A stretch of 35,680 nt of DNA from a virus, in the IMG/VR virus record IMGVR_UViG_3300045972_000082, positions 1 through 35,680 of that record. One strand, written 5' to 3'. The translations under genes and the position numbers were made by a program. Every line of letters begins with the position of its first letter. The first letter of the stretch is position 1. Positions 2,918 through 35,680 of this stretch are shown piece by piece. The notes under the pieces were generated by a model, which had not been told where the DNA came from, did not search any database, and saw only the letters and a program-made list of their open reading frames with translations.

Positions 2918-4321
2918 TTATATAAATGATAAATCGGGTATTGCCATTGTGTTAAAAGTCAAAGCCCCTGCGTCTGCAATGTTCGGACTTCGTAATCCTC
3001 GCTGTGCCATTCTTTCCTTTGGCTCAATCTGTATTTTCTCGCTACTGTTGATTTTGTATTTTACTTCTGCCAATTCCAACCACCCGTCGTGCCTCAATAA
3101 CTTTCCCCCGTCCCGTAAAAACTCATAAAGTGACCAATAGTTTTCTGCTTTCCTGTTCAAAAATCGTATGGTATCCACCTGCGGTCTGCTCGCCCAAGCA
3201 ATTCCCTGCACTTTTAAGCCGACTTCCACGCACCTGTCTGTCAATCCTCCCCCAACTCCCGTATCGTCTATGTTGACGTAGTTTGAGCCGTCTGCAAGCA
3301 TTCCACGGACAATGGTCACGTGTCCCATTAAATCCTTGCTCTGATTTTTTTCCTGCAACCACATATAAATATCTTGCCTCTGCACAAATGTCGTTTCATC
3401 CCCACCTCGTCCAACGTCCACCGCGCCCACTTTCGTCCCCGTAATCTCGCTCGGCAATTCGTCAATAAATGCGTCCGTAATCATATTTTTCGGGAAAAGG
3501 TATCTAAATCCCTCTGCGTCCAGCGTATCCCGTGGCGGAAATAAACACTCATAAAGTTCCCGAAACATTGGCTTGCCTCTCGCCTCTGTAATAAATTCCT
3601 CTGTATATCGCCCCTCTTTGAGCGCCTGTTTATAATCAATCCAAATCTTTGGGTACGTGTCGCTCGTTTTATAAAAATGGCTGTACGGCTTTTCTGTGTA
3701 AAAAGTGTTTCCAACTTTGCAATAAAATGCGTTAATCCCTTTTCCTGCAATCATTCTGTATACTGTCGCCTCTGTGTGGTCTGCCATTAGCCCTCCCTCG
3801 TCCATAACCACAATCCTGCTCCCTTTGCCCATTGCGCTTTCAATACTCTTGCCAAACGCCCTCTGATTAACGGACAGCGTGTATATGCCTCCGCCGTTGC
3901 GTAAAATAATTCGGTCTTTGCTTTCCTCTTGGCGCAAGCGTTCCAGTTTCGTGTCGCTTTCCAGTTGGCTATAAAAAGTAATATTATCGCCAAGGTGCTG
4001 TATAAAATACCGCATAATCTCCTTTGCTTTTTCATTGCTCGGCGCAACTACTGAAACAATCTCGTCCTGCACGCAAGCAATAACCACGCAAGCAATCCCA
4101 ATCGTTTGGCTTTTCCCGTACTGTGTGCAAGTTTCAATCTGCACTCGGTTGACCGGACGGAAAACCAAAACCCAAAATATCCTCAACTGCCCCTCGGTAA
4201 TCATTTCGTCTGCGGGTTGCCCCTCAATCTGAAACATTCTCAAAATGGCGTTGCAAATTTCCCTATCTTTTTTTGACGGCGGTGGTAGTTCGTTTAATAT
4301 TTTTTGCTCTTGGTCTGACAT
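2918..4321 (-). CDS. terL: Terminase large subunit (packaging ATPase and nuclease)
   Basis: 467 residues. The ATPase half shows a Walker A-type TQYGKS (residues 66-71) and a Walker B RIVVMDEGG (D174, E175). The nuclease half, an RNase H-like fold in this family, shows VGAVDVGRGGDET (D302, D308), then NYVNIDDTGVGGG (D352, D353) and a terminal SPNIADAGALTF. The motor drives DNA into the procapsid through the portal and cuts the concatemer. The gene overlaps the end of the small subunit by 59 bases, so the two are probably translationally coupled. Length is typical of TerL. Nothing appears broken. Confidence 0.93.
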   Translation of the reverse strand: MSDQEQKILNELPPPSKKDREICNAILRMFQIEGQPADEMITEGQLRIFWVLVFRPVNRVQIETCTQYGKSQTIGIACVVIACVQDEIVSVVAPSNEKAKEIMRYFIQHLGDNITFYSQLESDTKLERLRQEESKDRIILRNGGGIYTLSVNQRAFGKSIESAMGKGSRIVVMDEGGLMADHTEATVYRMIAGKGINAFYCKVGNTFYTEKPYSHFYKTSDTYPKIWIDYKQALKEGRYTEEFITEARGKPMFRELYECLFPPRDTLDAEGFRYLFPKNMITDAFIDELPSEITGTKVGAVDVGRGGDETTFVQRQDIYMWLQEKNQSKDLMGHVTIVRGMLADGSNYVNIDDTGVGGGLTDRCVEVGLKVQGIAWASRPQVDTIRFLNRKAENYWSLYEFLRDGGKLLRHDGWLELAEVKYKINSSEKIQIEPKERMAQRGLRSPNIADAGALTFNTMAIPDLSFI

Positions 4322-4808
4322 TCTCTTTTTTGTTTAATGAAGTCAACTGCTTCAAAGTGTCCCGTATATCCTCAATCTCTTGGCTTCGCGCGTCGTCCAC
4401 TACAACTGTTTGTACTGGTCGTCCTAGTTGCCTATCCAAAATTTCCTTGCTGGCTTTAAATCGCAAGTCGCTTTTGAATTTTTTTGACATCATAGCCACA
4501 AGGTTGCGGGTTGCAATTTCCGTTGCGCTCGCCAAAACTTTTTTGGCTTGGTCTAAACTCTCCGCCCCCATAAGTTCGCTATAAGCGTCATAAGCGGGTC
4601 GCAATTGTCCTGCGTGGTAAAGTGCCATTCTCAAATTCTTCACGTGATAGCTAAGTTTTTTGTTTGGATATTTTCTCAACAACTCGTCCTGTATTTCGGT
4701 GTAGCCAAAGCCATTATAACGCATTTCAATCAGCGTCAATTCCCACCCTTTTAATTTTCCTGCGAAAATCAACCATTGCCTATTTTTGTCCTGTAAGTCG
4801 TTTTTCAT
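4263..4808 (-). CDS. terS: Probable terminase small subunit
   Basis: 181 residues directly upstream of and overlapping terL. The N-terminal part (WELTLIEMRYNGFGYTEIQDELL, then KLSYHVKNLRMAL) reads as a helix-turn-helix module, as expected for recognition of the packaging site. The middle is helical (LASATEIATRNLVAMM, KASKEILDRQLGRP) and the phrase KASKEILDRQLGRPVQ is like that of many terminase small subunits. The C-terminus is very basic (RPRAKNIKRTTTAVKKR). Called from position plus domain layout; the sequence itself is divergent. Confidence 0.7.
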   Translation of the reverse strand: MKNDLQDKNRQWLIFAGKLKGWELTLIEMRYNGFGYTEIQDELLRKYPNKKLSYHVKNLRMALYHAGQLRPAYDAYSELMGAESLDQAKKVLASATEIATRNLVAMMSKKFKSDLRFKASKEILDRQLGRPVQTVVVDDARSQEIEDIRDTLKQLTSLNKKENVRPRAKNIKRTTTAVKKR

Positions 4809-5128
4809 AAATCCAAATATAATCCCTGCAATCTGCTTATAAGTTCTGCCCTGTTTTTTGTCCCAAACTTTCCTGTCATAACGTCATTGTTCAGCGCAAT
4901 CAATTTTTCCTTTGCCTCTTTGCTTTTAAAAACTTCGCTCAAATCCATTGCCATTTGTATCCCGTCGCGCTTGTCCTTTGATTTGCGCATATAGTCCCAA
5001 ACAATCATTTGTGCCTTTTGCAGTTTATTGCTTTCTCTCACTGCCTTGTCCAAAATAATAACGTCAATCCCAAATACTTTCCCTGCTTTAGTAAATGGAG
5101 ATTTTATTTTTAATGTCGGTCTTTTCAT
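4805..5128 (-). CDS. Hypothetical protein upstream of terminase small subunit
   Basis: 107 residues, not recognised. It overlaps terS by 4 bases (ATGA) and the gene before it by 4, so it belongs to the packaging operon and its translation is probably coupled. The N-terminus is basic with Pro and Lys (MKRPTLKIKSPFTKAG), followed by a probably helical body (KLQKAQMIVWDYMRKSK, DGIQMAMDLSEVFKSKEAKEKL) and a C-terminal ELISRLQGLYLDL. There is no cysteine cluster or membrane segment. A tail or packaging chaperone-like role cannot be excluded. Confidence 0.65.
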   Translation of the reverse strand: MKRPTLKIKSPFTKAGKVFGIDVIILDKAVRESNKLQKAQMIVWDYMRKSKDKRDGIQMAMDLSEVFKSKEAKEKLIALNNDVMTGKFGTKNRAELISRLQGLYLDL

Positions 5129-5343
5129 TTTCTTTTTCGCATAATCGCTTCGGCGCGTCTGCGCGCTTGGCGGTTGCCCTTGTAATATAAATCAAATAGC
5201 GTCACTGGTTTCTCGGGTTGGTTGGTTGGCAAAATTTCGCCCCTGTCAAAATCCTCGCCCCTTTTCATTCCCGTCTGTTTTTCCATTTTTTCCATTGCCT
5301 CGTCTGTTGTGTGTGGTGGTAAAATAATCATAATTTTCTCCAA
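5125..5343 (-). CDS. Small hypothetical protein
   Basis: 72 residues, not recognised. Starts within the last codons of the glycosyltransferase gene (16-base overlap) and ends in a 4-base overlap with the next gene. It is polar and highly charged, with a basic C-terminus (GNRQARRRAEAIMRKRK). The overlaps on both sides support it as real and tie the cassette at 5328-7911 to the terminase operon. Confidence 0.6.
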   Translation of the reverse strand: MEKIMIILPPHTTDEAMEKMEKQTGMKRGEDFDRGEILPTNQPEKPVTLFDLYYKGNRQARRRAEAIMRKRK

Positions 5344-6041
5344 TTAAATCTTATTTCAAACTGGTCGTGCGCTTCACTAAAAATAACCTTAATTTTGTCC
5401 CCGTATCTTCGTATCATATATCCGCACTGTACTTTCATAAAATTCTCGTCCTTGTAATAAGCCATTGCGCCCCCGTTCTTGCTTTTCATTTTATGCTCAA
5501 ATTTGTAGTCGTACCAACAAGCAACTTTTCTGCCGGAAGCAATAAGTCGGGCGCTCATATCCCAATCATTAAAAATCTTCAATCGCGTGTCGTATCCCCC
5601 CGCTTCCATAATCTGCTTAACGTCCAAAAAAATCATTCCCCAGCAACCCACCTTTTCTTTGACTTTGTCTTTCACAAACCAATTATGCCCACTGAAACTA
5701 ACCATAAGTTGTGCATAACCTTTCTTTTTCATAATTTCCTCCCCCTCGGCAATCATTGTGGCGGTGTCCACTTTCTTCCCTGCCCTGTCTTTCAGTCCAA
5801 ATATGTCGTCGTCCGCAAAAAGCACGTACCGCTCTCCCTTGGCGTAATAATGCTTCACAATAAAGTCCATAACATAGCCAAAACCCTTATCGTTTGCGTC
5901 CATAACCACCATTTTATTGGCGCCTACTCTCCCGTTGTATTTTTCTGCGTCCTGTGGCTCAACAACAATCTCCATAGGCACGTCAAAAACTTTGTCTATG
6001 GTGTAATCCAATCTGTTTTTGCTTGGGGAAACAACAATCAT
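5328..6041 (-). CDS. GT-A fold glycosyltransferase, TET-associated (TAGT)-like
   Basis: 237 residues. N-terminal beta strand MIVVSPSKNR, then a strand ending in a metal-binding triplet, YVLFADDDIFG (D77-D79), characteristic of GT-A glycosyltransferases that bind nucleotide-sugars through Mn/Mg. The second half has CWGMIFLDVKQIMEAGGYD and FNDWDMSARLIASG (D159, D161), as in the acceptor-side acidic motif. The compact size and FADDD phrase are most like the phage TAGT family, proposed to sugar-modify hypermodified DNA bases. Its start overlaps the radical SAM gene by 4 bases (ATGA), so the two are almost certainly co-translated. GT-A assignment is fairly strong; TAGT membership and a DNA substrate are inference. 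Confidence 0.72.
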   Translation of the reverse strand: MIVVSPSKNRLDYTIDKVFDVPMEIVVEPQDAEKYNGRVGANKMVVMDANDKGFGYVMDFIVKHYYAKGERYVLFADDDIFGLKDRAGKKVDTATMIAEGEEIMKKKGYAQLMVSFSGHNWFVKDKVKEKVGCWGMIFLDVKQIMEAGGYDTRLKIFNDWDMSARLIASGRKVACWYDYKFEHKMKSKNGGAMAYYKDENFMKVQCGYMIRRYGDKIKVIFSEAHDQFEIRFNWRKL

Positions 6042-7291
6042 ATTTTTGCCTTGCGATAATTATAAAAATAAACCACGTTGCCTTTCTTGTCTTTGAGTTT
6101 TCCCTGCAACACTCCCTCAAAATATCGCTCAAATACTTTATTGTTCCACTGGCGCACAAAATATTCTTGGTAATTCATATTGCTAACCTTGCTTCGCTTT
6201 TTCCCCAAATTCATATACTGGTCAACAAAAGTCCCCAGCCTCCAACTCATTTCCGTTTCGTCTGCCTCGCCCAGCGCGTCGTCCAGTGTAATAAATCCTT
6301 TTCGCTTCGCCATATAAATCAAATGGCTCATTTGTAACTTGGCTGTTTTAAAATGCTCGTTACTCGGCAAAATCCCGCAACAACTTCCCCCGCTCCCTTT
6401 CTCTTTGTGCTTTGCGTCGCTAATAAAATGCGGTAGCCCCTCGGCTTTACAAAGGTCAATATACTGCTTTACTAAAGGTTTCAAAAAATCGTAGTTCAAT
6501 CGTAAATATCCCGCGCCCGTTCCGTTCTCTTTGTAAAACTTAAAAAGAGAATAGTTCATTGCTTGGCTGATTTTCTTGTAATTTTCCACGCTCTCCTTGC
6601 GCCCGAAACTTCTTGTTTCCACGCAATAAAATTCTGTTGTAATGCTTTGGCAACCAATCCGTTTGGCTGTCTTAATCATTTCGGGCATTGTCTTGTCCGT
6701 AACCCCAACAATAAATGGTCGCATTCTCCAAGTTGTAAGCGTCCCGCATTCCCTTGCCAATGTTTCCAGCACCTCAACTCTGCGCTGTGGTGTCGGCACT
6801 CCTTGCTCCACCAGCGCGCTTGCCTTTTTGTCCATTGTAATAATGCTCGCTTTGTAGTGCCACCTGCTTCCCGCTTTTTTAAATTCCGCCAAATATCTTG
6901 GGTCGCGTAAAACCAAATCCCCTTTACTTGAAAAACTAATCGGGTATTCAATCTCGTTGAAAAATTTTAGCAGTTCCAGCGTAGTCCCGAATTTTTCCTC
7001 CAAAGGACAAAACGGGTCTGAAAGTCCGCCCCACTGTATTGGTCGCTTGTCTTTAATCCACTGCGAATATCCAACTTTAATTTCCCCTCGGAAAATCTTT
7101 TTTACCCGTTCCACGTTGACAGTTTTTACTTTGTGCCTGTCGTAATCTTTGCTGGCGGGACCAACTCCCCGTATGTACTGCGAAAAACAATATGCGCAAC
7201 TGTGTCCGCAATTGCTTTTGTCGTCAAAAGTAATCGGCATTGAGCAATCCGCAAACTCGCTTGTAATTCTTGGGGAACTATAATAATCCAT
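6038..7291 (-). CDS. Radical SAM enzyme in putative modification cassette
   Basis: 417 residues. The cluster motif CGHSCAYC (C28, C32, C35) is the CxxxCxxC that holds a 4Fe-4S cluster and binds S-adenosylmethionine; an additional Cys16 precedes it. Downstream WGGLSDPFCPLEEKFGTTLELL and FSSKGDLVLRD resemble the barrel strands of the spore photoproduct lyase / Elp3-type radical SAM group. A later GGSCCGIL offers extra cysteines for a possible auxiliary cluster. It overlaps the ParB-like gene by 1 base (TAATG) and the glycosyltransferase by 4. The adjacent genes suggest a nucleic acid substrate, but a protein or small-molecule substrate is possible. Family certain, reaction unknown. Confidence 0.85.
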   Translation of the reverse strand: MDYYSSPRITSEFADCSMPITFDDKSNCGHSCAYCFSQYIRGVGPASKDYDRHKVKTVNVERVKKIFRGEIKVGYSQWIKDKRPIQWGGLSDPFCPLEEKFGTTLELLKFFNEIEYPISFSSKGDLVLRDPRYLAEFKKAGSRWHYKASIITMDKKASALVEQGVPTPQRRVEVLETLARECGTLTTWRMRPFIVGVTDKTMPEMIKTAKRIGCQSITTEFYCVETRSFGRKESVENYKKISQAMNYSLFKFYKENGTGAGYLRLNYDFLKPLVKQYIDLCKAEGLPHFISDAKHKEKGSGGSCCGILPSNEHFKTAKLQMSHLIYMAKRKGFITLDDALGEADETEMSWRLGTFVDQYMNLGKKRSKVSNMNYQEYFVRQWNNKVFERYFEGVLQGKLKDKKGNVVYFYNYRKAKI

Positions 7292-7911
7292 TATATTTTA
7301 AGCATTCCTACTAATTTATCTTTGTCCAATTCTCCCTGCCGTGAAGTTTTAAAAGCCGTGCGTATCAAATCGTATTCCTCAAAAGTTTCCACATAAAAAG
7401 CAATATTGTCTTTTCGGTGCATTGCGTCTGGCTCGGCAACATTAACCTGCACTTTCTCGTTGCGCTCAAAAATCTTTTTCAATTCGTCGTCGTCGTCCAA
7501 GTCGTATCCGCCGTCGCTGTTGTCCTGCATAATTTCCTTGCGGGTGGTGTACTGGTTGACTTCTTCCTCGCTAAATCCCATTGCCTCATTCTGTAATTCG
7601 TAAATCAAGTCTGCCAATTTTGTTTCGTCCCAAACTCCGCTAATTTTATTTAGCGCAAGGTTTAATATTTTTTCCTCTTTTTTGCTTAAATCCAAAACCA
7701 CACAATCGGCAACCTCCCAACCCATTTCCGTCACGGCTTTCAGTCGTTGGTGTCCGCCAATAACCGTCATATCTTTATTAACAATAATCGGCTCAACCAA
7801 GCCAAATTTGTTAATGCTTTCTTTCAGTTGCTCCATTTCCTCGGGGTACATAATCCTCGGGTTGTATTCCGCCGGATTAAGTTTCTCAATTGCAATTTGT
7901 TTTTTTTCCAT
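7291..7911 (-). CDS. ParB/sulfiredoxin-like domain protein
   Basis: 206 residues. The first ~100 form a ParB-like domain: IEKLNPAEYNPRIM, EEMEQLKESINKFGLVEPI and the hallmark IGGHQRLKAV (G52-R56), then NLALNKISGVWDETKLADLI. In many phages this domain is fused to a DNA adenine or cytosine methylase. Here the C-terminal half is short and acidic (DNSDGGYDLDDDDELKKIFERNEK) and has no methylase motifs. The enzyme that takes the methylase place appears to be the separate radical SAM protein encoded next. Possible roles are DNA targeting, nicking or nucleotide binding. It begins the three-gene coupled cassette. Confidence 0.82.
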   Translation of the reverse strand: MEKKQIAIEKLNPAEYNPRIMYPEEMEQLKESINKFGLVEPIIVNKDMTVIGGHQRLKAVTEMGWEVADCVVLDLSKKEEKILNLALNKISGVWDETKLADLIYELQNEAMGFSEEEVNQYTTRKEIMQDNSDGGYDLDDDDELKKIFERNEKVQVNVAEPDAMHRKDNIAFYVETFEEYDLIRTAFKTSRQGELDKDKLVGMLKI

Positions 7912-34827: not shown

Positions 34828-35680
34828 TTAACTTGCAGAAGTTTTCAGTGCCACGAACGCGGTAGGAATTGCTATGGTCAAGCCAATTCTTTCTGTCACA
34901 CGGAGTGCTGACATATTACTTTCAAACAAGTTGGTTGAACCAATCGTTGCTTGGTCGGAAACTGCAACTGTCATTTGTCGTCTGTCCCCAAGGTACATAT
35001 ATTTGAAGTTTCCAAATATCACGTACTTGGTTGAAAGAGCAGTTGAACTCGGCATTTTTTCCGAAAGATAAACTGGGTAACCCCAAGCGTATCCAACAAT
35101 TCCAACACCCTGCGAAGCGTCCCCCGTTGTCACTGGTGTTGCAGTGGTTGCAATGTATTGTCCGTCACTTCCTTTCAACTTCTGGACAGTTGACCAAACA
35201 GAGCGGTGCATTACGAAAACAGCACCTTGCAAAACAATCGGTTTAACACTTGCAATCATATCACGCATATAATCAGCAGTGATTTTTGCAAATGTAGTGT
35301 CGCCTGTTGCCTGTGTCAAAACAGTCACGCCAGCGTCAGCAAGCACACCCGTAAATGGAGAACCTGTTCCATTCAAACCTTGATTATCTTCCTCTCCTGC
35401 AATCGCTTCTGAAAACAATTCCACCAAAAGTGAAATAGTATCAGCGTCAGCGTCCTCCAACAGTTCGTTGGTTACTGGGGTCAAACATACAAGCGTTTTA
35501 GCAAGCAGTGTGACTTGTCCAAGAGTTGGCTGTGAAACTGTTCCAGCAACTCCTTCCCCTGGCCAGTAGACGGCAACAGAAGCGGTAATTTTCGGAAGTT
35601 TCAGCGTATCGCGTTGCATAGGAATAGTCCTAGCAAGTTTACGGATAATTCCAAATACTTCTGCAAGACGTACAACTTCT
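34828..35680 (-). CDS. Major capsid protein (HK97 fold), N-terminus outside window
   Basis: 284 residues visible, continuing to the window edge in frame (EVVRLAEVFGIIRKLARTIPM). HK97-type features: RDTLKLPKITASVAVYWPGEG, LGQVTLLAKTLVCLTPVTNELLEDAD, AGEEDNQGLNGTGSPFTGVLA, VFVMHRSVWSTVQKLKGSDGQYI, YPVYLSEKMPSSTALS and LGDRRQMTVAVSD. This is the common HK97 capsid C-terminal two thirds. The missing part would include the scaffolding delta domain removed by the prohead protease. It forms the capsid shell. No internal stop. Confidence 0.93.
   Translation of the reverse strand, partial: EVVRLAEVFGIIRKLARTIPMQRDTLKLPKITASVAVYWPGEGVAGTVSQPTLGQVTLLAKTLVCLTPVTNELLEDADADTISLLVELFSEAIAGEEDNQGLNGTGSPFTGVLADAGVTVLTQATGDTTFAKITADYMRDMIASVKPIVLQGAVFVMHRSVWSTVQKLKGSDGQYIATTATPVTTGDASQGVGIVGYAWGYPVYLSEKMPSSTALSTKYVIFGNFKYMYLGDRRQMTVAVSDQATIGSTNLFESNMSALRVTERIGLTIAIPTAFVALKTSAS

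Follow-up and report, generated by a model that had tools for sequence, protein, structure and literature searches.

A radical-SAM enzyme probably stands in for TET/JBP dioxygenases in a predicted viral DNA hypermodification cassette

The IMG/VR virus record IMGVR_UViG_3300045972_000082 (linear, 35,680 bases, analysed whole and called the window here) has its main genes on the minus strand, and among them a cassette of three overlapping genes that encode a ParB-like protein, a radical S-adenosylmethionine (radical-SAM, rSAM) enzyme and a TET-associated glycosyltransferase (TAGT; Table 1). A sequence-only reading of this DNA had proposed that the three genes form a hypermodification pathway in which the rSAM enzyme supplies the acceptor for a sugar. 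The gene positions on which it relied, and the overlaps of 1 base (ParB-like/rSAM) and 4 bases (rSAM/TAGT), agree with the open reading frame (ORF) coordinates, and the residues that it picked out are in place: GGHQR in the ParB-like protein, C28, C32 and C35 in the rSAM enzyme and the DDD of the transferase. In the window, as in relatives, the packaging genes follow directly downstream of the cassette; the small ORF next to it shares 4 bases with the end of the TAGT gene, so that the overlapping run extends into the packaging genes and reaches the genes of the probable small and the large terminase subunit (TerS and TerL), which the cassette had been said to precede.

Table 1 Genes of the cassette and of the packaging run that follows it in the window
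Feature	Position	Strand	Basis
ParB-like N-terminal-domain protein, 206 residues, GGHQR; opens the cassette	7291..7911	-	PF02195 and PHROG matches
Radical-SAM (rSAM) enzyme, 417 residues, QWGGLSDPF motif	6038..7291	-	PF04055 E 4.6e-5, AlphaFold2 model
TAGT, 237 residues, GT-A fold, DDD 77-79	5328..6041	-	PF20691
Small ORF, function unassigned, 68 residues from ATG (72 from an upstream TTG at 5343)	5125..5331	-	
ORF, function unassigned, 107 residues; 4-base overlaps join the cassette to the packaging genes	4805..5128	-	
Probable TerS, 181 residues, directly upstream of TerL	4263..4808	-	Position and weak PHROG match
TerL	2918..4321	-	phrog_2 E 4.8e-17
Portal; part of the packaging run downstream of TerL	2512-455	-	

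The ParB-like protein passed the cut-off of ParB_N (PF02195; 40.2 bits versus 26.3) and matched phrog_620 and phrog_498 (ParB / ParB-DNA methyltransferase) with E values of 6e-41 and 8e-38, while it stayed below the cut-off of the partition ParB family TIGR00180 (ParB/RepB/Spo0J; 33.2 bits versus 58.45). The transferase had been described as TAGT-like, in agreement with its score against PF20691 (41.2 bits versus a cut-off of 27.5); it also matched phrog_842 (beta-glucosyl-hydroxymethylcytosine (HMC)-alpha-glucosyltransferase; E = 7e-13), and its D77-D78-D79 is invariant in six relatives. Scans of the window record with the Pfam models Tet_JBP, Thymidylat_synt, Thy1 and DNA_methylase returned zero matches, and no gene for a TET/JBP dioxygenase, a thymidylate synthase or hydroxymethylase, ThyX or a C5-methylase was found in it; the sequence-only reading had likewise noted that TET/JBP, a modified thymidylate synthase and a methylase are missing.

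Relatives of the rSAM protein, gathered by protein search and with a DNA pattern for QWGG-LS-DPF, gave about 33 non-redundant loci (numbered with L), almost all of them on uncultured viral contigs; L041 and L067, which matched the DNA pattern but have no rSAM gene, were left out of the counts and the tree. A ParB gene stands beside rSAM, adjacent or within about 2.5 kb and on the same strand, in 28 of the 33 loci, while a TAGT is near in 15 (once as a fusion), a GT-B glycosyltransferase in 9 and some glycosyltransferase in about 23. The window's order, ParB-rSAM-TAGT, which the sequence-only reading had suggested looking for in other phages, does recur in viral contigs (L002, L011, L014 and L018), alongside ParB-rSAM-GT-B (L003, L004, L012, L015 and L046), ParB-rSAM-TAGT-GT-B (L037), ParB-DNA methyltransferase-rSAM-TAGT-GT-B (L016), ParB-rSAM-FkbM (L017), ParB-kinase-rSAM-Thy1 (L062) and ParB-rSAM-B12 rSAM-TAGT (L053). 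One contig carries a single ORF of 694 residues, with the TAGT as its N-terminal and rSAM as its C-terminal part (L055:811-2895). An overlap of 4 bases between rSAM and TAGT is also seen in L002, L011, L014, L016, L018 and L064, and in the order TAGT/rSAM in L049; together with a TAGT in 18 of 32 rSAM records, this argues that the arrangement is not due to chance. For comparison, any of three types of DNA glycosyltransferase is found in 111 of 5,388 RefSeq phages, about 2% (PMC13216743), against which 18 of 32 has a nominal binomial probability of 1e-22, a value overstated by the counting of relatives. The cassette precedes different terminase families: the window type, whose TerL is 46-49% identical to that downstream of the cassette in L011, L012 and L014, the L004/L018 type, the L015/L016 type and, in L057, the GpA type. 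Its company with unrelated terminases indicates that it behaves as a mobile unit.

TET/JBP-TAGT cassettes, such as those of Nonlabens phage P12024L and of L023, L024, L114 and L118, have the TAGT and often an adjacent ParB-like gene in common with the rSAM cassettes, and several likewise lie directly upstream of terminase genes, but they have a TET/JBP dioxygenase where the rSAM cassettes have rSAM. The order ParB-TAGT-TET, followed by one or more small ORFs and TerL, is seen in L114, L118, L113, L024 and L023; ParB and TAGT are followed by rSAM in L057/L030, L027 and L049, and TerS- and TerL-like genes come next after rSAM in L057/L030 and L027 (the TerL of L057 is confirmed). The two kinds of cassette also have the same alternative partners. 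At TET loci the TAGT slot is filled by an FkbM methyltransferase in L116 and L111 and by a P-loop kinase in L117, L075, L076, L083, L084, L089, L090, L092 and L093. The FkbM beside rSAM in L017 is 35-37% identical to its TET-side counterparts (L111 and L116); a kinase homologous to the TET-side P-loop kinase stands beside rSAM in L062 and L065, and a PF18751 kinase does so in L033/L070. Thymidine hypermodification pathways with a 5-hydroxymethyldeoxyuridine DNA kinase are known from phages ViI, M6 and SP10, and it is these that the P-loop kinases of L062, L065 and L033/L070 and of TET loci such as L117 and L075 recall; the hydroxymethyl group in those phages, however, comes from a nucleotide-level hydroxymethylase, an equivalent of which was not found in most rSAM records.

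The two enzymes moreover exclude each other: Tet_JBP (PF12851) matched 0 of 31 rSAM records and 3 of 3 positive controls, and rSAM was present at 0 of 49 TET loci, many of which are near-copies of one lineage. In a tree of the TAGTs, those partnered with rSAM and those partnered with TET interleave, and monophyly of the rSAM-partnered TAGTs was rejected (approximately unbiased test, p = 0.00023), indicating that swaps recurred. From the TET gene slot, the three kinds of tailoring partner, the mutual exclusivity and the TAGT-rSAM fusion, we judge that this is probably a modular DNA hypermodification cassette, with rSAM replacing the TET/JBP dioxygenase as the maker of the acceptor. To this extent the sequence-only proposal that rSAM supplies the acceptor has gained strong comparative support. 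In the literature searched, no paper was found that links radical SAM to TAGT, ParB, glycosyltransferase or hypermodified phage DNA; an earlier mention of rSAM in such neighbourhoods may exist.

We propose that the window TAGT is a DNA-base glycosyltransferase. In T2 and T6 the PF20691 enzyme puts a second glucose onto the glucosyl-hydroxymethylcytosine of the DNA, an activity assigned by experiment (PMC13216743; PMC13390438), and the window TAGT has in common with this beta-glucosyl-HMC-alpha-glucosyltransferase its Pfam family, phrog_842 and a GT-A fold near GT2. In T-even phages the acceptor arises at the level of the nucleotide, and an alpha-glucosyltransferase attaches the first glucose (PMC13216743); in the window, by contrast, neither a hydroxymethylase homologue (PF00303) nor TET was found. 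A TAGT in the absence of an alpha- or beta-glucosyltransferase is reported for 288 of 753 glycosyltransferase-bearing phage genomes (PMC13216743).

The structure model of the window TAGT (pLDDT 85) matched the GT2-like GT-A enzymes TarS, RmlT and TarP, enzymes of wall teichoic acid and polysaccharide synthesis. Such matches could mean that the targets of rSAM and the glycosyltransferase are a protein or a glycan of the cell surface, for superinfection exclusion or virion decoration, with the ParB-like gene a mere neighbour; GT-B, FkbM, NTP-transferase and GT2 genes, common in glycan pathways, occur near some loci, and many rSAM enzymes modify peptides. We consider this improbable: one member of PF20691 modifies DNA and has the same fold neighbours (PMC13216743), 28 of 33 loci have a ParB next to rSAM, and TET, an established family of DNA-base oxidases, is found in this slot beside the same partners. 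The sequence-only reading had held that a transferase matching a cell-surface glycan family would speak against DNA as the substrate. By fold it does match one, yet such a match does not tell the two roles apart: the TAGT of phage T6, which modifies DNA, is itself reported to cluster beside this GT2 family (PMC13216743), and the TarS, TarP and RmlT neighbours thus give no argument for a cell-surface role.

A related arrangement was seen in L021 (2561-6053) and in L022, where a gene resembling UDP-galactopyranose mutase by eye, a ParB and a double-TAGT protein stand directly before the terminase genes, with neither rSAM nor TET nearby; the mutase-like gene could provide a galactofuranose donor for DNA glycosylation.

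The window rSAM protein scored 24.1 bits against PF04055, below the curated cut-off of 29.5, while its relatives L017 and L006 passed with 42.4 and 45.9 bits. Its AlphaFold2 model (pLDDT 89, pTM 0.90) has a radical-SAM fold with the expected partial TIM barrel, and its best fold matches were viperin, NifB, TsrM and LipA (E 1e-6 to 1e-4), matches that cover only the core, at a TM-score of about 0.4. PDB sequence searches with the rSAM protein (single sequence and profile) and with the TAGT returned nothing credible. The closest curated families, PA0069 and Rv2578c (NF033668 and NF038135), correspond to residues about 26-217, the radical-SAM core; the window protein reached 70.3 bits (cut-off 360) and 53.2 bits (cut-off 430), respectively, and the models do not cover the C-terminal half with its invariant CC(G). 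No function is on record for either family in the sources consulted on them. The protein is a member of an unnamed, tight and distinct family. The CX3CX2C cluster motif (C28, C32 and C35) is present in all rows that cover that region, and across 35 aligned rows C16, C28, C32, C35, Q86-W87-G88, D92, F94, S291, C304, C305, W382 and Y408 are invariant where covered, with C223 kept in 34 of 35.

The sequence-only reading had drawn an analogy to spore photoproduct lyase (SPL), an enzyme that acts on thymine in DNA and belongs to the same radical-SAM class. This analogy found no support: no SPL model matched (NCBIfam, 12 members, E up to 1), SPL is absent from the 50 best PDB fold matches, and the family has its extra near-invariant cysteines. 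It is very improbable that rSAM is a repair or nucleotide-pool enzyme, SPL-like or viperin-like, that neighbours the TAGT by chance. The best NCBIfam neighbours are the uncharacterised PA0069/Rv2578c families, the top fold match, viperin, acts on nucleotides and a uracil-DNA-glycosylase gene follows rSAM in L048, all of which such an enzyme would accommodate, but besides the core-only fold matches and the missing SPL match, the recurring 4-base TAGT overlap, the fusion and the TET-type partners misfit a bystander.

One of the extra cysteines lies upstream of the cluster motif and the other three in the C-terminal half; together they could bind an auxiliary Fe-S cluster, and they suggest unusual cofactor chemistry. 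They also bear on the possibility that rSAM works on a base whose first handle has another source, such as a host enzyme, a missing phage gene or a DNA methyltransferase, and appends a carbon or sulfur group to which the sugar is then attached: an auxiliary cluster at C16, C223, C304 and C305 would fit sulfur insertion or other non-hydroxylation chemistry, DNA methyltransferases accompany the cassette in L016, L018, L055 and L064, a second rSAM of B12 type is present in two loci, and Thy1 adjoins rSAM in L062. We regard this as unlikely, though less so than a role in protein or glycan modification or in repair; no such first enzyme was found in the window and most relatives, although the records may be incomplete, and the slot and partners in common with TET point to the first step.

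In three loci the rSAM gene is fractured: L070 (4554-1961, minus strand), L033 and L045. In L070 its first part passes into an intein-like segment precisely at the third cysteine of the cluster motif, and the second part opens with the C-terminal segment of an intein, which ends in VHN ahead of CFSQY. Between the two lies a separate nuclease-like ORF of 310 residues; the whole looks like a split intein accompanied by a stand-alone homing endonuclease.

Several observations weigh against rSAM as a substitute for TET in DNA modification. The rSAM records are contigs and possibly fragments, so the absence of TET from them is not absolute, and some TAGT branches are long, leaving individual placements unsure. 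About 10 of the 33 loci lack a recognised glycosyltransferase, and no ParB was seen near rSAM in three contigs (L031, L042 and L070). In a quick, smaller tree of the ParB proteins the rSAM-side and TET-side groups are largely separate, which implies that the genes of the cassette were not all exchanged equally. No DNA-binding domain was identified in the rSAM protein, none of its sequence relatives has a known function, and its family was not found in isolated phages (tblastn of INPHARED). The INPHARED isolates gave only distant PA0069-type rSAM proteins, none with the family's layout, the nearest layout being that of Dulem virus 36 (ParB, hypothetical gene, rSAM; no glycosyltransferase). Searches of a genome collection gave two loci, one in a metagenome-assembled genome (MAG) labelled Patescibacteria, which matches the viral contig L003, and one in a further MAG, too few for host assignment; L003 and L061, the latter binned to the Patescibacteria MAG (UBA2591), carry the same cassette region, a weak hint at the host.

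With rSAM as the probable maker of the acceptor, the pathway could run as follows. A 5'-deoxyadenosyl radical generated by rSAM would be used to functionalise a pyrimidine in DNA, the simplest site being C5 or the methyl group on it, and a nucleophilic handle would be left there, probably a hydroxyl like that left by TET; the TAGT would attach a sugar to this handle, and the ParB-like protein would hold or position the enzymes on phage DNA. Glycosyltransferase, kinase and FkbM all work with TET, whose product carries a hydroxyl, and all accompany rSAM, so that on the simplest reading rSAM leaves a comparable pyrimidine nucleophile; the handle could also be a thiol or a carbon branch, and the substrate a nucleotide rather than DNA. 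The ParB-like protein may be a clamp or targeting factor, co-occurrence being the ground for this. Radical-SAM chemistry requires no O2, and rSAM could thus be an anaerobic counterpart of TET. We lean, by a little, towards the more specific view that the rSAM family functionalises DNA pyrimidines without molecular oxygen, creating a 5-hydroxymethyl-type or new handle that TAGT, GT-B, FkbM or DNA kinases then decorate. To our knowledge, the established enzymatic starts to glycosylated phage bases are nucleotide-level hydroxymethylases and O2-dependent TET dioxygenases. If rSAM acts in this way, it would be a second, chemically unrelated start to post-replicative DNA hypermodification, radical chemistry could carry out the first step, possibly under anoxia, and TAGT phages that lack a known acceptor maker would have one explanation.

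Individual loci carry further genes beside the cassette. The second rSAM, of a B12-binding type, follows the first in L053 (5404-6705) and L068 (6322-7608) and suggests a further alkylation step. In L048 (5218-5449) the gene that overlaps the end of rSAM belongs to the uracil-DNA-glycosylase superfamily (PF03167, 43.7 bits), and its product could act on the modified base or a precursor. The MAG contig L060 (5461-7058) encodes a ParB, a GT-B-like protein, a protein of 173 residues and rSAM; the third of these resembles PIG-L/LmbE deacetylases by eye, gave no Pfam match and could point to an amino sugar on DNA. L031 (3849-6322) has ORFs for NTP-transferase (PF12804/PF00483) and for HAD-like and kinase-like proteins between its TAGT and rSAM, which could mean that a nucleotide-sugar donor is made by the phage itself.

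In the rest of the window, the family scan gave no match for the ORF at 5125-5331, the TerS candidate matched phrog_2538 (terminase small subunit) weakly (E = 0.038), and Rfam and tRNA scans were empty. A short prohead-protease-like ORF (23-442) ends near base 23, a capsid-like ORF (34828-35619) begins near the opposite end, and no terminal repeat was found in the record; with these genes at both edges and no repeat, the record probably represents a permuted genome that is almost complete and was cut between the prohead-protease-like and capsid-like genes.

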